From NCBI GenBank assembly GCA_002898795.1, contig BEIG01000005.1, positions 1 to 55,766 on the forward strand: a DNA stretch of 55,766 nucleotides, written 5' to 3'. Made by a program: the position numbers and the translations under genes. This stretch comes from a bacterium HR30. GTDB lineage: Bacteria; Desulfobacterota; Binatia; HRBIN30. This document shows, one piece after another, positions 23,157-32,915 of the stretch. Below the pieces are notes generated by a model. It made no database searches. It had not been told where the DNA came from and worked only from the letters and a program-made list of their open reading frames with translations. The stretch's first letter is position 1. Each line of letters opens with the position of its first letter.

Positions 23157-24494
23157 TCAGCCCCCGAGCAACCGCGACGCCAACCCGACCAGCGCGGCGC
23201 CCGCGATGACGGGTAGCACGCCGAGTCGCAGGCGGAACAACGCGATCGCGCACGCAGTGGCGATCGCCGCCGCTCGTGTATCGAACGGTCCTCCGTGCCC
23301 CTGCGGCCACAACGCGTGGGCGGCGAAAAACAGGGCGAGATTGAGAATCACGCCGACCACCGCGGCGGTGATCGCCGTCAATGGGGCCATCCACCGCTGG
23401 TTGCCATAGGTGGACTCTACCAGAGGTGCACCGGCAAAAATGAACACGAACGAAGGCAAAAAGGTGAAGACCGTGGCCACGACCGCCCCGGCCACCCCCG
23501 CCGCGAACCGTGCGTTACCGAACAGCTCGTGTGTGAAGCCAGCGACGAAGCCGACGAAGGAGACAATCATAATTAGGGGTCCGGGCGTGGTTTCGCCGAG
23601 TGCCAGGCCCGCTGCCATCTGCGGAGCGGTCACCCAGCCGTAGTGCTCCACCGCGCCTTGATACACGTAAGGAAGTACCGCGTACGCGCCGCCAAAAGTT
23701 ACAAGCGCCGCCTTGGTGAAAAACCAGCCCATTTGCGTCAACGTGCCATTCCAGCCAAATTCCAAGAGCAGCAACCCGAGTAAGCCCGACCAAAGCACGA
23801 GGCCAATGATCGTCACCTGTGCCAGCCGCCTGTGGGTGAGGCTAGTGTGGGGCGCGCGCGGTGTGGTGTCGTCAACCAGCGCGGGCGAGCGCACGCTCGC
23901 ATGCAACGAGTGGCTGCTGCCAATGGCAAAGCGCGCCGGCATGAGGCGACCCCCGATCGTCCCCACGACAGCGGCCGCCGCGACGATTGCTGGAAACGGT
24001 GCGTTGAATACGAAGATTGCCACAAACGCTGCGGCCGCGATCCCCCATAACCAGGCGTTTTTCAGTGCGCGGCTGCCGATGCGGTGTGCCGCGTGCAACA
24101 CGATTGCGACCACGGCAGGCTGGATGCCGTAGAAGATGCCAGCCACCACCGGCGCGTCGCCGAACGCGACATACACCCACGACAGTGCGATCAAAAGAAA
24201 AAGCGAGGGCAGCACGAACAGGCTGCCGGCGACAATGCCGCCCCAGGTCCCATGCATGAGCCACCCGACATAAGTTGCCAACTGCTGTGCCTGTGGCCCT
24301 GGCAGCAGCATACAGTAGTTGAGCGCGTGTAGGAACCGGCGCTCGGAGATCCAGCGTCGGCGCTCCACCAGCTCGTGGAACATGATCGCGATCTGACCCG
24401 CCGGGCCGCCGAAGCTGATGAAACCGAGCTTCAGCCAGAACTTCAGAGCCGTAGTAAAGGGTACTGACCGAACCGGCGGAGCGTCTTCGCTCAT
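23157..24494 (-). CDS. chrA: Chromate transporter family protein, two-domain ChrA type
   Basis: This inner-membrane protein (445 aa from the ATG at 24494) belongs to the CHR family of chromate/sulfate antiporters. Two homologous halves are visible, each opening with a Phe-Gly-Gly motif: GFISFGGPAGQIAIMFHE near residue 25 and KAALVTFGGAYAVLPYV in the middle. LPGPQAQQLATYVGW in the first half is paralleled by ETTPGPLIMIVSFVG in the second. The start is weakly supported by its ribosome binding site. It stands alone; no chrB regulator is nearby. Confidence 0.92.
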   Translation of the reverse strand: MSEDAPPVRSVPFTTALKFWLKLGFISFGGPAGQIAIMFHELVERRRWISERRFLHALNYCMLLPGPQAQQLATYVGWLMHGTWGGIVAGSLFVLPSLFLLIALSWVYVAFGDAPVVAGIFYGIQPAVVAIVLHAAHRIGSRALKNAWLWGIAAAAFVAIFVFNAPFPAIVAAAAVVGTIGGRLMPARFAIGSSHSLHASVRSPALVDDTTPRAPHTSLTHRRLAQVTIIGLVLWSGLLGLLLLEFGWNGTLTQMGWFFTKAALVTFGGAYAVLPYVYQGAVEHYGWVTAPQMAAGLALGETTPGPLIMIVSFVGFVAGFTHELFGNARFAAGVAGAVVATVFTFLPSFVFIFAGAPLVESTYGNQRWMAPLTAITAAVVGVILNLALFFAAHALWPQGHGGPFDTRAAAIATACAIALFRLRLGVLPVIAGAALVGLASRLLGG

Positions 24495-24684
24495 GCAAGG
24501 GCCTCGCTTACGGTGCTGAACCGTAGCGGCGGGTCTCCCACCCCGCGAGACACACCTTAGCGCGAGCCATCCTCGGTGCGAACGGTTCGGTGCCACCCGT
24601 CGTGGCTGGTGGGCTGCGCTCCGCGACTGCGCAGTGCTCCCTGGGACGCATGGGCATCCTGCCCGGCTGCACGCCGGCAACGGC

Positions 24685-24888
24685 TGCCTGGCCAAGAAGA
24701 TAAAACGGGCCTCGGTCCGGGCCCGTAAGCAGAACAACGTGAGCCGCAATTGCGGGAGTGACGTCTCGGCCGTCGCGGTGTGGAATTCGGGTGCACCGGT
24801 CGAAAGCCGTTAGCTGCCACTCAACCGAGTCTTCGGACCACAACGCCGTTACCTTCCCCTTGGGCGTATCGAAGGTGAGACTGTAGCC
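24685..24888 (-). pseudogene. Orphan C-terminal fragment of a glycoside-hydrolase lipoprotein
   Basis: About 68 codons match the C-terminus of the glycoside hydrolase at 31293-32648. Shared blocks include FDTPKGKVTALWSE (versus FDTPRGQVTALWSE), RDGRDVTPAIAA and LTGPDRGPFYLLGQA. Roughly 60% of residues agree by eye. The catalytic part is absent upstream, where the frame continues into unrelated low-quality sequence, so this is a decayed duplicate. It lies just upstream of chrA on the same strand. Confidence 0.75.
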
Positions 24889-25924: not shown

Positions 25925-26953
25925 TCACGGCGTCCCGCTGCCACAGCCCTCCAGGGCGTTGCCGACGGCCACCACGAGCTCGTCCACGGTAACTTCCCCG
26001 TCCTCGGACCGGTCGACGGCCCGGCACTCGCGCGTGCCGAGAATGTCCAAGGCGATGTTCACGCCGCGGACCAGTTCCTCCACGGTGACCCTCTCATCCC
26101 CGTCGCAGTCGCCCACGCACGTGGTCGGCGCGGGGCAACCCGCCGGGACAGCGGACAGGGAAGGGCTCATGGCGCAGATGGCGTCCAGGGCCGTCTCGGC
26201 AATTGCGGCGTAGCGGCTGGAAGGAAACGCGTTCGCGAGTTGGCGCAGCTTGCCGATGGCGGCGTCGTCGACGGGAAAGGCCCGCGCTTCGGAACTCATC
26301 AGATGGGCGAGGCCGTTGGCGCGGATGAAACCCCACGCCTCGGCATCGGCCCCCGTGGGCTCGCGCACTCTCACCGTCACGGTGTTGGACGTAAGCTGCC
26401 GCTGATAAAAGTCGTACAGAAGCACGGCTTGGATCGCGTACATGCCTGGAGCGGGAAATGCGGGTTGGTCCCGCACGACATCGAAGGCGATGACAGCGCG
26501 GCCTTCGATGTCGCCGCCACCGGGAATCGTCACCGGCTCCGCCACGAGCTTCTTCATCCGCGCGTTCTGCATGACTTTGGAAACATACGCCGCCCACGGG
26601 CCGCCGTCCTTGGAAATCGCGATGCGGACCCGGTCCATCTCGTACGACGGATAGAAGTCACCCTCGACGTCCTGATTCGTCTTGTTCTCGACGCGCAAGC
26701 GGATGCCGACGGGCTCGCCGACCAGGATCGTCTCCGCGTCGGCGGACAGCACCAGTGCGAGATCGCCCGGGGAGACGGCTGCGGCTTGAAGCGAGTGCAG
26801 CGCCACGCAGAGCGCGGCAGCGATGGCCCCAAGGCGCATCTGCCGCCAACTCCGTTGGGCGCGTCCGGGCCCGCCGTGAGATTCCGTGTGCCGCGTGACC
26901 GGCGCTAAAGGGGGAGGACGAAGGTCGCGACTGATTTCCGGACAACGTTTCAT
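25925..26953 (-). CDS. Secreted protein with C-terminal dockerin-like EF-hand pair
   Basis: This 342-aa protein has an export signal (IAAALCVALHSLQAAA), an Ig-like strand-rich domain (LVGEPVGIRLRVENKTNQD), and a C-terminal pair of EF-hand loops at about residues 277-340. The loops are CVGDCDGDERVTVEEL and VDRSEDGEVTVDEL, bracketed by cysteines, as in dockerin type I-like modules. These normally bind calcium. The ATG at 26953 has TAGGAG upstream and lies 10 bp after the stop of the large repeat protein. An ATG at 26839 would start at the signal peptide itself and is a fair alternative. No cohesin partner is seen. Confidence 0.7.
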   Translation of the reverse strand: MKRCPEISRDLRPPPLAPVTRHTESHGGPGRAQRSWRQMRLGAIAAALCVALHSLQAAAVSPGDLALVLSADAETILVGEPVGIRLRVENKTNQDVEGDFYPSYEMDRVRIAISKDGGPWAAYVSKVMQNARMKKLVAEPVTIPGGGDIEGRAVIAFDVVRDQPAFPAPGMYAIQAVLLYDFYQRQLTSNTVTVRVREPTGADAEAWGFIRANGLAHLMSSEARAFPVDDAAIGKLRQLANAFPSSRYAAIAETALDAICAMSPSLSAVPAGCPAPTTCVGDCDGDERVTVEELVRGVNIALDILGTRECRAVDRSEDGEVTVDELVVAVGNALEGCGSGTP

Positions 26954-26963
26954 AGCCGTTCTC

Positions 26964-29900
26964 CTACAGCGTACCGCCTCCAGGCCGCCGCGTGCTACGG
27001 ATGCGGTTCTCACTTGCGTTGCTGAATCGGCGGGGGATGGCGACTCGGGTCGGCCAGCCGCGGTCCATGATGGCTCCATCAGGATGATCGGCGCTCAGTT
27101 GATGACCCACCTCGTGTACCGCCGTCGCCCGCTCGATCGCCGGGCGGCTCGCGCCGTTCGCCACCGCCCGCGGGTGCCGGGCAATGTCGGTGATGGTTTC
27201 CTGATACAGGATGGAGCCGTCCAACAAGGTCACGCCCAACACCGCCCGCGCATCCCTCACCGGATCCGGAGTGCCGGGATCCCAGTCGCCATCCGGCTCA
27301 CCCTGGAAGGCCGACTGGATGTAGCTGACCCAGAAATCGTTCGTTCCGGTGGCATTTTTGCCGTTACCAATCTGGCCGGGGACCTCGGCATCCAGGGTGT
27401 TCACGTCGAGCGCGATGTTGTTCTCGTCATTCCTGGAATTACCGCCACCGTCGTAAATCGGCCGGATGTAAGCTGGAGCGAACAGGTTGTCGCCTGCGGC
27501 ATCGCTGTCCTGCATCCAGCCCGTGTCGGGCACGCGCGGCAGAATCGAGTCATCATCGTCGTCGTGCAGTCGAAAGCGTGCCGGCAAGCGGCCCGCAGGC
27601 GTGCCGCAGACGCTGACGAAATTCGGCGGTGCGCCCTGGGAGTTGGCCAGCACGGGGAGGTTGAGGAATCCACCGGCTCCCTCGACGAAGATCGAGCCAT
27701 TGATGTACTGGTTGGCCTGGTCGAGCCGCTGGTCGATCGTGAGCTCTGTCACCTTGAGGCCCGGAGCGCAAACGGCTCCGGTGACGCGTACGGCCGTGAC
27801 CCGCCCGGTCACCGTGTTCTCGTTTGGCGTGTTCCACCAGTTCAACGAGCTGAACGCCCGCATCGAGTCGCGCTCGACATGCAGCCGCCGCCACACGGTG
27901 AGCACGGGTGTGACGCGCTTGCCGGAGTCCGGGATTTCCTTTTCGTTGTTTCGGTCCACGATCTTCTCCTGGTCCCTCTGATCTCGGTTGCGGAAATCGA
28001 GGACGAAGTCGCGGTCGCACGCGGCGGCGATGCGGAAGTTGTCGCCTGGCTGCTTGGTCACTTGGAACTCTGTTGTTTTCTCCTTGCTGCCGGCAGGGAA
28101 CGTGAGCCTGGCGATGTCGTCCGCATCCTGGCCAGTGATCAGGCCGGACGCCTTGCCACCAACCCTGCCCCGGTTGTCCTCGTCCGCAGTGTAGCCGATG
28201 CTCGTGTTGGGGTAAGTGCCGGACGACCCATCGTCGTTCGGGTCGACGTGCGGATCGTGCGCGGCCGGATCGTCGATGTCGAAAGCGCGCAGGAACACGT
28301 CAAGGTTCTCGACCGGTTCGACGGTGAGCTTGACGCTGAGAGTGACCCTATCGCGCGCCGCCTCGGTTGTGGACCGCGCATCGGGGAATACTCGCCGCGC
28401 GCCAGCCCAGCCCGGTACGTGCGGATCGGCGTCGAGCGCGTTGTCGTTGTTGAGGCTATTCCTCTGGCCAATCCATGCCATCTGTGCGAACTGGATGACG
28501 GTCAACGCCACGCGATCGGGCACACCCTCGAAATTCACCGGCGACAGCTCGAACACCACATCGCGTTGCTGCGCGCTGCCCTCGATGCCCTCGATCCAGA
28601 ACTCCCGCGGTAGATCGGCGACGCTGTACACCGCGGGCAGGACCACAAGCACGCGCTTGGTCGGCGTGGCCCACACCTTCACCTTGTTGGCACCCCGGAT
28701 GATCTTCAGCTCGACGTGGCCAGCGAGCGAGCCTACCGGCCGGCGCGCGACCATTCTCACAAGGTCGTCTTCACCGGCAACTTCGGGCTCGTCGATGTCG
28801 AAGTCGACGCTCTTGTCGTCGTTGTCGGCGTTGACACAGTTCATGCTTCCAATGTTTTCCTCGTCGTCCGGGTTGCCGCCCTCGTCGTCGCGCATCTCGG
28901 TGCCGTCGAGGCGGAAGATGTCGAGGTCGAGCCGAATGGGTGCTGGCGTGGGGGTGCGCGTCCTTGTGGATGTCGCCGTGCGGGTGGCTGTCGGCGTCGG
29001 CGTTGCGCTCGGGGTGTTCGTGGCCGTACCGGTTTCCGTTGCAGTCTGCGTGGGAGTGCCCGTCGCGGTCAGCGTTGGCGTGCCCGTGGCCGTGTTCGTT
29101 GTCGTCGGGGTCTGCGTGGCGGTGGGTGTGGGCGTCGGTCGTTCGACGCAGCGGCCGGTCGAGCGATCGCAGTTCCAGCCGGGGAAGAATACACCACCCT
29201 GTTCCCGACATTCCGCACCCGTGACGGGCGCGAAGCACTCCGCTCCACCGGTTTCACAGCAGCCTAGCTCTGGAGTTGCTGTCGGCGTGTGTGTGGGCGT
29301 CACGGTGCCGGTAGCCGTTGCAGTAGCGGTTGCCGTCGCTGTGGCGCTTCGTGTGGGGGTTGCCAACGGGACGCACCGCCCCGTCCCCACGTCGCACTCG
29401 GCGCCGGGAACGAACGTGCCCCCCAATTCTTCGCAGAGGCCACGGGAGGCGGGGGAGGCGCACGATGCTACCCCGTGCTGACAGCAGCCGAATTCCACGA
29501 TTGGGGTCGGCGTAGGGGTCCGCGTGCTCGTACGGGTGGGCGTGCCGGTGGAGGTTCTAGTCGCCGTCCGCGTCCGCGTGTGCGTCGCCGTGCTGGTCCG
29601 AGTCGCCGTTGCGGTGCGCGTGGCTGTGTGCGTACGAACTACGGTTTGCGTGGGCGTGATCGTAGGCGATGGCGTCCTTGGCTGCGCACACTGTCCGGTT
29701 TCAAGGTCGCACTCCAGACCAGCAAAGAACGTCCCCCCAAGCTCTGCGCAGACCCCCGAGTCAACGGGAGAGGCACAGGACCCTGCGCCAAACTGACAAC
29801 ACCCGAGCCGGCTAAAAGGTGTGGGCGTTGGCGTCGGCGTGCTCGATGGCGTGCGGGTCGGTGTGGTGGTTGGCCTCTGGGTCGGAAGCACGGTCCACGT

Positions 29901-30359
29901 GGGCGTTGGCGTATTGGTCGGGCGCGGCATCTGTACCGTGACGGTCAGCCGAGCGGAGGCCACGAACTCTCCTGCGGTGGCTAGGAAATCGATCTGGAAC
30001 GTCCGTCCGACATCGCGGTCGGTTGCCGTGTAGGCGAGAGTCATGGACACCGGGGAAACGCCAGCTACCGGGTTGGAAGGGGTAATCAGCGCGCTGGGCG
30101 GAAGCGTGCCCACGGCGGAAAGCACAATGATCTGCGGGGGAACCACCTCGGCCCTGATGTCGTCCGTGACCATCTGACCTGGCCTGACGGTGCACGAAAT
30201 CGTCGTGTCGAGCCGGGTGCACAGCGCATCCCCCGAGGACGTTACTTGCTGCGATACGGTTAACCGAAGCAGAACCAACTCACCGTCTGCCCCCTGCGGC
30301 CGCATGCACAGAAGAATCAGGTATGCGCCCGTGCAGAAGGGCCTCCGTCGGCGTAGCAT
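26964..30359 (-). CDS. Large secreted protein with three 6-Cys repeats, PT-rich linkers and a metzincin-like zinc motif
   Basis: This 1131-aa protein begins with a hydrophobic N-terminus and a region of about 145 aa. Three 39-residue Cys repeats follow at residues 186-224, 291-329 and 366-404, each of the form GCC-x6-C-x8-C-x12-C-x6-C with a conserved Gly-Gly. Thr/Pro-rich linkers separate them (146-181, 227-287, 332-363, 408-473). An Asp-rich globular region of about 600 aa comes next. Near the C-terminus HEVGHQLSADH (1082-1092) plus GAIMDRG (1095-1101) form a zinc-protease-like site with a Met-turn; Ser replaces the usual metzincin Gly. The ATG at 30359 has GGAG upstream. It heads a two-gene unit with the EF-hand protein. 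Protease activity is inferred from the motif alone. Confidence 0.75.
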   Translation of the reverse strand: MLRRRRPFCTGAYLILLCMRPQGADGELVLLRLTVSQQVTSSGDALCTRLDTTISCTVRPGQMVTDDIRAEVVPPQIIVLSAVGTLPPSALITPSNPVAGVSPVSMTLAYTATDRDVGRTFQIDFLATAGEFVASARLTVTVQMPRPTNTPTPTWTVLPTQRPTTTPTRTPSSTPTPTPTPFSRLGCCQFGAGSCASPVDSGVCAELGGTFFAGLECDLETGQCAQPRTPSPTITPTQTVVRTHTATRTATATRTSTATHTRTRTATRTSTGTPTRTSTRTPTPTPIVEFGCCQHGVASCASPASRGLCEELGGTFVPGAECDVGTGRCVPLATPTRSATATATATATATGTVTPTHTPTATPELGCCETGGAECFAPVTGAECREQGGVFFPGWNCDRSTGRCVERPTPTPTATQTPTTTNTATGTPTLTATGTPTQTATETGTATNTPSATPTPTATRTATSTRTRTPTPAPIRLDLDIFRLDGTEMRDDEGGNPDDEENIGSMNCVNADNDDKSVDFDIDEPEVAGEDDLVRMVARRPVGSLAGHVELKIIRGANKVKVWATPTKRVLVVLPAVYSVADLPREFWIEGIEGSAQQRDVVFELSPVNFEGVPDRVALTVIQFAQMAWIGQRNSLNNDNALDADPHVPGWAGARRVFPDARSTTEAARDRVTLSVKLTVEPVENLDVFLRAFDIDDPAAHDPHVDPNDDGSSGTYPNTSIGYTADEDNRGRVGGKASGLITGQDADDIARLTFPAGSKEKTTEFQVTKQPGDNFRIAAACDRDFVLDFRNRDQRDQEKIVDRNNEKEIPDSGKRVTPVLTVWRRLHVERDSMRAFSSLNWWNTPNENTVTGRVTAVRVTGAVCAPGLKVTELTIDQRLDQANQYINGSIFVEGAGGFLNLPVLANSQGAPPNFVSVCGTPAGRLPARFRLHDDDDDSILPRVPDTGWMQDSDAAGDNLFAPAYIRPIYDGGGNSRNDENNIALDVNTLDAEVPGQIGNGKNATGTNDFWVSYIQSAFQGEPDGDWDPGTPDPVRDARAVLGVTLLDGSILYQETITDIARHPRAVANGASRPAIERATAVHEVGHQLSADHPDGAIMDRGWPTRVAIPRRFSNASENRIRSTRRPGGGTL
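28941..29924 (-). repeat. Threonine/proline-rich low-complexity repeats coding linkers
   Basis: Four tracts (28941-29138, 29271-29366, 29499-29681, 29817-29924) encode runs of PT, AT and RT dipeptides. They alternate with the three 117-bp Cys-repeat units at 29148-29264, 29373-29489 and 29688-29804. The DNA is imperfectly repetitive and could recombine or slip. Confidence 0.85.
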
Positions 30360-31292: not shown

Positions 31293-32648
31293 TCAACGCG
31301 ACCGAGCGAGTTGTCCAGAGAGTTCCTGGGCTCGAACGACCGCTTTTCCGAGGAGGTAAAACGGCCCTCGGTCTGGCCCTGTAAAGAGCGAGCTGCCGGC
31401 AGCAACCGCAGGTGTGACCTCTCGACCATCCCGATCAAAGATTCGTGAGTTTCTCCCCAAAAGTGTCAGGCGCCATTCTGTCGGGCTTTCCGACCAGAGT
31501 GCCGTTACTTGTCCTCGAGGCGTATCGAAAACCAAACCGTGGGTGCCAGGACCATAAGGCGCCCTTTGCGACAAAGTCCCCTCCCCAGCAAGCTCGCTCA
31601 GCGTACGCAAAGCGAAATACGCCGGTTTGGGGCTTAGGTTGCCCGTTAGCAAACCCCAGTGGTGCTCGATATTTCCGGGCGAAGCGTTTGTTTCATCTCG
31701 ATCCTTGAACCAGACACTGAGCGGTAATCCAAGGGAAAAATTGGTTAGGATCATTCGCGCGACGTACGTCGCTTGCTGGTCCTGGGAAACTGCGGGGAGA
31801 AAGTTGAAACCCGTAGCTGGCGCATGGGGGTCGTAGCTGCTGTAGCCCCATTCGCCACTAATGACAGGTTTCTCGGGTCCGTGTTGACGTATGAGTGCCC
31901 GAACGGCGGCAACGTCGGCCGACACAGATTCCGGTGGCCCTTCACGGTAAAAATGCACCGTAACGCCATCGATGAGTGGAAGAACCCCGGCCGTGAACAC
32001 ACCCTCTAGGAACTGGAGATGCGGTATCGCACCCAACAGTGTGAAAGCCGCCGGGATTCCGGCCAGCACGGCACCGGCGAAAATGGTCGCCGAGGGATCG
32101 GCTGCCCGTACTACTGGAACTGTGGTCGCCACCAGCTGGGCATAAGCAGAAGGGTCAGGACCACGGCCTCGCCCGCTCCAAAAGAATGGCGAGTTCGGTT
32201 CGTTCCAGACTTCCCAGAGCACTCCTCGTCCTCTGTACCGTGTAGCGGCAGCACGAGCAAAATTTGCAAAGGCAGTCCGACCGGTGTCGTCCACGACGGC
32301 TCGACTCGGGCCGTAAAGGCGGTTCCCGTAGTCGAGGATAAACATGAGGCGTAGACCTTCCGCACTTGCTGCTTCGACTAGCTCGTCGCTGCCGGAGAAG
32401 TCGTAAACCCCAGGTTCCTTTTCCACGACTTCCCAATCGAGGTCGTTGCGCAACGTACGCACCCCGGCAGCACGAAGCAGCGCCAAAGCTTGGCGATCGA
32501 CCTGGCCGCGCGTGCCATAGTGGGTATTCACCCCAATGGTTTCTCCGAGAGTGAGCTTGCGATTGCCAGAAGGCTCCCCGTCATCTCCACAGGCGCTTAA
32601 GATGGCCGAGGTCACGGTCAGGACGAGGGAAAGGCGAACCAGCCGCAT
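31293..32648 (-). CDS. Lipoprotein glycoside hydrolase (clan GH-A, GH5/GH39-like)
   Basis: This protein has 451 aa from the ATG at 32648. A lipoprotein signal ends in LSAC with lipidation at Cys20. A TIM-barrel domain follows with the acid/base motif WEVWNEPN (E150) and the nucleophile region PVISGEWGYSS (E266), plus VHFYREGPP. These are clan GH-A features. A small strand-rich C-terminal domain at about 368-440 includes FDTPRGQVTALWSE and FTGPDRGPFYLLGKA; this part is duplicated as a fragment at 24685-24888. The start has a weak ribosome binding site. The substrate is unknown. Confidence 0.85.
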   Translation of the reverse strand: MRLVRLSLVLTVTSAILSACGDDGEPSGNRKLTLGETIGVNTHYGTRGQVDRQALALLRAAGVRTLRNDLDWEVVEKEPGVYDFSGSDELVEAASAEGLRLMFILDYGNRLYGPSRAVVDDTGRTAFANFARAAATRYRGRGVLWEVWNEPNSPFFWSGRGRGPDPSAYAQLVATTVPVVRAADPSATIFAGAVLAGIPAAFTLLGAIPHLQFLEGVFTAGVLPLIDGVTVHFYREGPPESVSADVAAVRALIRQHGPEKPVISGEWGYSSYDPHAPATGFNFLPAVSQDQQATYVARMILTNFSLGLPLSVWFKDRDETNASPGNIEHHWGLLTGNLSPKPAYFALRTLSELAGEGTLSQRAPYGPGTHGLVFDTPRGQVTALWSESPTEWRLTLLGRNSRIFDRDGREVTPAVAAGSSLFTGPDRGPFYLLGKAVVRAQELSGQLARSR

Positions 32649-32915
32649 AGCCAGAGTGAGCCACAGGCCCACGACAACGCGCAAGAGTAACCGGGTCGGA
32701 AAGCGGGAAGCCCATCTCGGTTGAAGAAGCTCTACGGTGGCCCTCGAGGGCTGAGGTCGCCACCACACTCGCGGCTTACTCCGGCGCGAAGTGAGACGGA
32801 CAGGGGCATGACGCACCAAAGACGACTCGCGCGATCATCGTTGGTTCACTCCGTGGGGGAGCGAGGAGCGCTTTCGAGGTGCGCTTCGGAGTGATACTCG
32901 AAAGGGCGCTCTGCC

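Follow-up and report, generated by a model that had tools for sequence, protein, structure and literature searches.

Metzincin zinc peptidases, which include the ADAM/ADAMTS proteases, archaemetzincin and pappalysins such as cytophagalysin, share the signature H-E-x-x-H-x-x-G/N-x-x-H/D (PMC11674741). In Listeria, a secreted metzincin, Mtz, is paired with an exported TIMP-like lipoprotein, Tim, a putative controller encoded by the adjacent gene, which the metzincin cleaves (PMC8235301). The peptidylarginine deiminases (PADs) have their calcium sites 3-5 at about residues 155-180, and their middle domain, PAD_M (PF08527), is divergent in bacterial and fungal members (PMC8826395). A stretch of 55,766 nucleotides from the genome of bacterium HR30 (contig BEIG01000005.1; hereafter the window) carries on its minus strand two adjacent genes for exported proteins, namely protein A, a multidomain metzincin-like protein of 1131 residues (26964..30359), and its partner, protein B (25925..26953). 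We favour, at just under even confidence, the reading that A is a surface metzincin-like peptidase and B a trans-acting, prodomain-like partner that serves as inhibitor and/or chaperone.

Protein A has in common with the metzincins the HExxHxxXxxH arrangement, a later Met and the predicted order of the active-site, backing and C-terminal helices, and with cytophagalysin an exported multi-Ig (immunoglobulin) architecture (PMC11674741). It differs from them in carrying Ser in place of Gly/Asn, in matching no Pfam or NCBIfam model at the cut-off, and in having its catalytic domain as the last part of the chain, with a PAD-middle-like domain ahead of it. In addition, no prosegment was recognised in A, which is accompanied by a conserved separate partner gene. 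The A-B pair resembles the Listeria Mtz-Tim pair in that adjacent genes encode an exported metzincin or metzincin-like protein and an exported putative controller, and is set apart, by description only, by the type of partner, which is a TIMP-like lipoprotein in Listeria and an Ig-like protein related in fold to IPI and the AsaP1 prodomain here (PMC8235301). The Listeria pair shows that such pairs exist, and makes the role of a substrate a live alternative for B.

The reading frame, strand and length of A agree with the original prediction. Behind a putative signal peptide recognised by eye (about residues 1-24; 30288..30359, minus strand, as are all window features below), A consists of three 39-residue six-Cys repeats on Thr/Pro-rich linkers, followed by 657 residues with a C-terminal zinc motif. 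The metzincin-like catalytic domain, assigned from a model and a profile match, spans residues 945-1131 (26967..27527) and contains the motif HEVGHQLSADH at residues 1082-1092 (27084..27116) and the Met-turn-like GAIMD at residues 1095-1099 (27063..27077). The motif had been placed 50 residues from the end, which is correct when its first residue is counted, and about 600 residues behind the last repeat, where the gap is in fact about 680. Scanning genome contigs with a four-row alignment identified 34 A loci among 52 candidate stretches; these are a sample, from scans for two conserved peptides, in which L045 and L051, and likewise L053 and L056, share a genome by accession.

Motif conservation was counted in 35 members with an intact C-terminus (32 of these loci, proteins P0003 and P0004, and the window protein; L046, L048 and a broken copy in genome G007 were left aside). 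HExxH is kept in 34 of them, so the motif is not absent from the relatives of A. The eleventh position carries His in 25 members, Asp in 5, Gly in 3 and, in one member each, Met and Lys. A chance occurrence is ruled out by this conservation (His or Asp at the eleventh position in 30/35). The window protein has lost none of the three His, nor the catalytic Glu or the Met, and HExxH with an eleventh His is found in 24 of the 34 other members; by a loose count, some Met follows within 49 residues of the motif in 31/35. Position 8 is Gly in 21 members, Asn in 5, Arg, Ala and Ser in 2 each, and Asp, Thr and Lys in 1 each. The family consensus, with Gly/Asn in 26/35, thus fits the metzincin signature, from which the Ser of the window departs; we therefore use the term metzincin-like and do not file the protein as a metzincin. 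The replacement of Gly by Ser pointed out in the original prediction is true of the window and proves to be a minor variant in the family (2/35). Ser is also found there in some ADAMTS proteases.

The metzincin-like site is supported on three counts: the motif is conserved, the predicted topology fits, and the profile match to ADAM17, though weak, is specific. The window protein matches Pfam Reprolysin_3 below the cut-off (E 0.053; 14.5 bits against 22.4) and nothing in NCBIfam; with no model over cut-off, its assignment to a named peptidase family was rejected. Of 34 relatives scanned singly at E up to 0.1, Reprolysin_3 is matched by 16 (best E 4.1e-6) and Reprolysin_5 likewise by 16 (best E 5.8e-5). 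A profile of the catalytic domain searched against PDB sequences found ADAM17 best (E 5.6e-4), followed by ADAM33, archaemetzincin and ADAMTS-5. The AlphaFold2 model of residues 475-1131, built from a 32-row alignment, has a predicted local distance difference test score (pLDDT) of 87.1 and a predicted template modelling score (pTM) of 0.86. In model numbering, DSSP assigns helices at 516-529 (backing), 598-613 (active site) and 640-648 (C-terminal), as well as strands and short turns at 618-624. The active-site helix contains both motif His and stops just before the Ser. Mean pLDDT values are 93 at 601-610 and 90 at 611-620, and GAIMD falls in a short turn. This predicted order of helices and turns fits the metzincin pattern, and A may bind zinc and cleave proteins. 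The list of VIA fold matches for the model is filled by its first domain, and the absence of metzincins there is uninformative on the catalytic fold.

That first domain (about residues 476-624; 28488..28934) is predicted to adopt an Ig-like fold resembling the PAD middle domain, a finding that goes beyond the original prediction. Structural similarity search using VIA matched model residues 2-150 to PAD2 with a Z of 12.8 over 147 aligned residues (root-mean-square deviation (RMSD) 3.0, 17% identity); a row confined to these residues, 4n2l, has a Z of 12.5 over 140 residues (RMSD 3.0). The first 39 rows, with Z from 12.8 to 8.6, are PADs or cytoplasmic-lattice entries, which contain PADI6, and the first other row has a Z of 7.9. 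Foldseek also placed PADs first (E 7.6e-9), with an integrin at rank 5; the whole-model TM-scores are low (0.11-0.17 among the matches listed, 0.16 for the top one) because a single domain is shared. A 20-row profile of the domain hit PAD4 in 12 of 13 rows of PDB sequences, weakly (best E 0.83), and puts the acidic N-x-D-N-D loop of A (28761..28832) against PAD4 from residue 153 on, in the region of its calcium sites. No PAD_M match over cut-off was obtained in 145 and 18 genomes searched, and PAD_M is not among the 17 Pfam families matched by 34 A members at E up to 0.1. The resemblance is thus good in the predicted fold and weak in sequence. In PADs the middle domain precedes a pentein catalytic domain, whereas in A it precedes a zincin; the acidic NxDxD...D loop can be aligned with that of the PAD domain, and A may bind calcium there.

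Two further beta domains connect this domain to the catalytic one, both conserved over 29 rows. For the second (27924..28412; FDxDDP ... TMQPGDNF), PDB sequences gave no clear relative, the sole match, siderophore receptor Fiu (E 0.036), being taken as chance; for the third, beta-rich domain (27528..27923; LTVWRRLHVERDSM ... DDDDD) they gave no match. The PAD-middle-like domain also occurs apart from the rest. In a search with the single protein, genome G039 was matched only in query residues 24-142, which correspond to this domain, and an 820-residue protein of G039 without a peptidase part (L015, G039:C7 95417-95782) has a copy 32% identical to that of the window (E 1.7e-8), which suggests that the domain is mobile among exported proteins.

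The gene for B follows closely, its nearest ATG (26951-26953) lying 10 bp past the stop codon of A, as had been noted; a later ATG at 26839, directly ahead of a signal-peptide-like stretch, is also possible. The gene-B profile places B immediately after A at 21 of the 33 loci that could be assessed (L048, whose open reading frame runs off its contig, was excluded), and it follows A in the window, in G007 and in both copies of genome G017 as well. At 19 of 20 measured loci, L053 not being among them, a possible B start is found between -4 and +81 bp from the stop of A; the exception is L046, with a gap of 370 bp and an A frame that breaks off early. Most measured B proteins have, by eye, a signal-peptide-like N-terminus. 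Moreover, in 22 pairs the pairwise distances of A are correlated with those of B (Mantel r 0.50, p 1e-4; null maximum 0.40), indicating that the two move and diverge together. The suggestion of a secreted pair is supported by this correlation together with the linkage across phyla. At three loci lacking a detectable B (L049 9682-10161, L054 9181-10434 and L058 5890-7398), A is followed by other open reading frames with signal-like starts, some of them apparently Ig- or PKD-like by eye; these may be diverged or replaced partners.

Protein B combines an Ig-like domain (26357..26773 in the window) with a helical TPR-like segment (26171..26353). At the C-terminus of the window B are two EF-hand/dockerin-like loops (25940..26101; EF-hand_1 E 0.0028, below cut-off), modelled at low confidence. 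The description of B as an EF-hand protein holds for these loops, which are a local add-on; as a conserved part of B the EF-hand was rejected, the Ig-like and helical domains being what is conserved. The B model has a pLDDT of 80.8 and a pTM of 0.71. Its Ig-like domain matches B. subtilis IPI (3isy) with a VIA Z of 10.3 over 111 aligned residues (RMSD 3.3), RbmA with the same Z, and AsaP1, a zinc endopeptidase, with a Z of 9.8 in its N-terminal part; B thus shares its predicted fold with BsuPI/IPI (PF12690; PMC3901451) and the AsaP1 prodomain. At the sequence level, BsuPI was matched by 1 of 22 B members (E 0.14), not that of the window, and B is not placed in BsuPI. The AsaP1 prodomain reportedly acts in cis on an aspzincin, whereas B is encoded separately and has a helical tail. 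Among PDB sequences, the whole-B profile found TPR parts of CpoB (E 7e-8) and BamD, which the tail resembles, and the start of an arrestin C-domain; IPI is not among the best 60 of its 85 matches.

In 145 genomes of the window's class, with at most 17 candidates per genome scored, the B profile found 21 places among the matches listed, 13 of which match the helical part only. The remaining eight, where the match covers the Ig part, all adjoin or are fused with a zinc-peptidase motif. Four stand beside A (the window, G007, where A is broken, and G017 twice), and three share a chain with a metzincin-type motif (L088 HEMGHSFNLAH, L089 HELGHCFNLWH, L091 HEMGHCFNLAH). At the eighth, L090, the end of an exported B-like protein overlaps the start of an Aspzincin_M35 gene (E 2.7e-43). 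The catalytic stretch of L089 also matches the A profile (E 3.4e-7), and L088, L091 and L092, a fourth fusion from another genome, are called peptidases from their motif. The last three look alike by eye and may count as one event. B-profile scores at six such places are 11.5-49.1 bits, compared with at most 1.5 for 300 shuffles. Among seven places on further contigs (L084-L087 and L092-L094), four pair with A and one is fused to a metzincin-type motif; G532:C266, G543:C296, G542:C196, C206 and C280, G528:C77, G530:C42, G532:C368 and G535:C115 were left out of this set.

At L090 (6840-9277), the M35 gene next to the standalone B-like Ig gene has its own B-like N-terminal domain. A cassette of transglutaminase, A, B and an exported protein with SQHop_cyclase-type repeats occurs at L019 (3575-11469), L020 (4200-11994) and L032 (2946-15207), that is, twice in G017, where the copies carry Dockerin_1, and once with the transglutaminase as a separate upstream gene (L032).

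The gene pair, its conservation, the domain resemblance and the fusions were obtained by computation, and beside them we propose the following mechanism. A would be an exported, calcium-stabilised metzincin-like zinc endopeptidase, in which the Thr/Pro stalk with its disulfide-rich modules would keep the peptidase away from the cell, and the PAD-middle-like and following beta domains would scaffold the C-terminal catalytic domain. B, encoded adjacent and also exported, would bind A via its Ig-like domain, of a kind found elsewhere in the same chain as zinc peptidases, and act in trans like a prodomain, keeping the peptidase inactive and/or aiding its folding until export or calcium binding. 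We regard as doubtful the further idea of a widespread split zymogen, in which a metzincin-like peptidase, gated by calcium and equipped with a PAD-type middle domain, has its inhibitory or chaperone prodomain in the co-inherited downstream gene, and the Ig domain has been swapped between metzincin-type and aspzincin peptidases, N-terminally, C-terminally or in trans.

Several observations weigh against a prodomain-like B acting on an active A. Besides the Ser of the window motif, five of the 35 members (L040, L042, L052, L053 and L056) have neither His nor Asp at the eleventh position, and all five keep B, which argues that B need not serve catalysis; L042 and L052, one clade in the tree, have an Asp one residue further on, and L040, L053 and L056 form another. 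The last three, having lost the third zinc ligand while retaining the B gene, are probable pseudo-peptidases. B was not detected at 12 of the 33 loci, including one seven-member clade (L030, L031, L034-L037 and L039), and the B copies of L086 and L094 have no zinc-peptidase motif nearby. In the fusions, no Pfam peptidase match reaches its cut-off, L088 and L089 falling below it and L091 and L092 giving no match, and the B domain lies C-terminal in all four with a metzincin-type motif, unlike a classical prodomain. Ig folds are common, IPI is tied with RbmA, and Spo0M has a Z of 9.0 to B; the top 50 Foldseek matches of B begin with GH3 glucosidases and contain Spo0M, arrestins, antibodies and others, IPI not being there. 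Moreover, IPI, an inhibitor of subtilisins, reportedly has no effect on metallopeptidases, and the authors of its structure doubt an inhibitor role (PMC3901451).

It is possible, though we hold it unlikely, that A is an active metzincin-like peptidase to which B is an accessory subunit for exosite binding or anchoring, or a substrate, and not an inhibitor or chaperone. The C-terminal position in the four fusions is where an accessory domain would sit, the Listeria metzincin cleaves its own partner (PMC8235301), and both IPI and RbmA have been interpreted as protein-protein interaction domains (PMC3901451). Against this, a domain of the B type is also found on the N-terminal side of an aspzincin M35 catalytic domain. 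The propeptide of AsaP1, to go by the title of the structure paper, is said to inhibit its enzyme intramolecularly. That A might be a surface adhesin or structural protein, its zincin fold a relic serving as a pseudo-peptidase scaffold, would accord with its multiple Ig-like domains, stalk and Cys modules, the Ser at the turn position of the window, the five members with a changed eleventh residue, three of them a clade, and L049, which lacks the second His; the complete set of ligands, Glu and Met in the window and the HExxH-plus-His pattern of most other members make this improbable. Least probable, the pair could be a module of a larger extracellular modification system, A processing the transglutaminase, the toroid/dockerin proteins or their targets where these are present. 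A carries a fused Transglut_core in L050 and in the two G017 copies, and in L032 one is encoded just upstream; a third gene with SQHop_cyclase hits follows B twice in G017, with a relative found by blastp downstream in L032. Yet nothing of this kind was recognised among the ten open reading frames scanned around the window pair, and blastp with the G017 proteins against loci L027-L060 found none except in L032 and L050.

The A family appears to be undescribed and is scattered over many bacterial phyla. Within the window's class, the A core profile matches 3 of 148 genomes (its own, G007, and G017 with two copies), and the same three match among 395 genomes drawn from the phylum; in the single-protein search, G039 was the fourth genome of 98. 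The titles of the 34 loci name Acidobacteriota, Desulfobacterales, Planctomycetota/Phycisphaerae, Alphaproteobacteria, Armatimonadetes, Verrucomicrobia, Lentisphaerae, Kiritimatiellae, Bacteroidota, Elusimicrobia, Omnitrophota, Fraserbacteria, Methylococcaceae and others. When iterated, the A profiles extend up to the whole region; a first scan of genome contigs with a single A sequence gave 17 candidates, none confirmed, and searches of phage, plasmid and viral collections gave no relatives at their limits. A FastTree of 34 rows, rooted at the midpoint, groups the window protein with a Fraserbacteria sequence (support 0.90) and puts the two G017 copies beside Desulfobacterales, apart from the window protein. 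This placement and the patchy spread suggest horizontal transfer or deep paralogy. A literature search, with subscription journals mostly outside it, listed no account of the A family or of a PAD middle domain in a peptidase among its matches. The G007 homologue of A (L018/L013, G007:C2 about 464600-469400) is 61% identical over residues 27-615 of the query region and is interrupted by frameshifts, one of which falls at the zinc motif, representing either a decayed gene or an assembly error.

The N-terminal part of A varies among relatives. The three repeats of the window protein, at residues 186-224 (29688..29804), 291-329 (29373..29489) and 366-404 (29148..29264), all fit the single pattern GCC-x6-C-x8-C-x12-C-x6-C, which confirms the identical spacing reported earlier; the linkers between them are rich in Thr and Pro, as had also been noted. 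The search for the repeat proposed at that time was run in the 145 genomes and found it at few places beyond the window, in the G007 homologue of A and at one other place each in G000 (L073, C116), G083 (L068, C87) and G001 (L070, C11); in L068 a single copy stands immediately behind a signal-peptide-like stretch. With so few matches, the repeats were rejected as part of the peptidase family and are regarded as a local attachment to A. In a survey of two proteins and ten stretches, the domains ahead of the core include transglutaminase, TPR, TIG, Big, SdrD_B and other surface-type domains, some members having none, so that the stalk and Cys repeats seen in the window protein represent one attachment of many. 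A phmmer match of A to a PDB chain, AaBgIC (E 1.4e-7), falls within the Thr/Pro linker (residues 407-473) and was put down to composition. The pair is flanked by a GH5-cellulase-like protein upstream (31293-32819) and a chromate transporter downstream (23157-24749), with no evident link to either.

Altogether, the analysis offers a testable function for a large family of exported proteins, whose window member has no Pfam or NCBIfam model over cut-off, and ties this family to a conserved partner gene. The occurrence of a PAD middle-type domain in a non-deiminase context would bear on the origin of the PAD domains, and the recurrence of one Ig-like domain suggests that it may serve as a controller of two clans of zinc peptidases.

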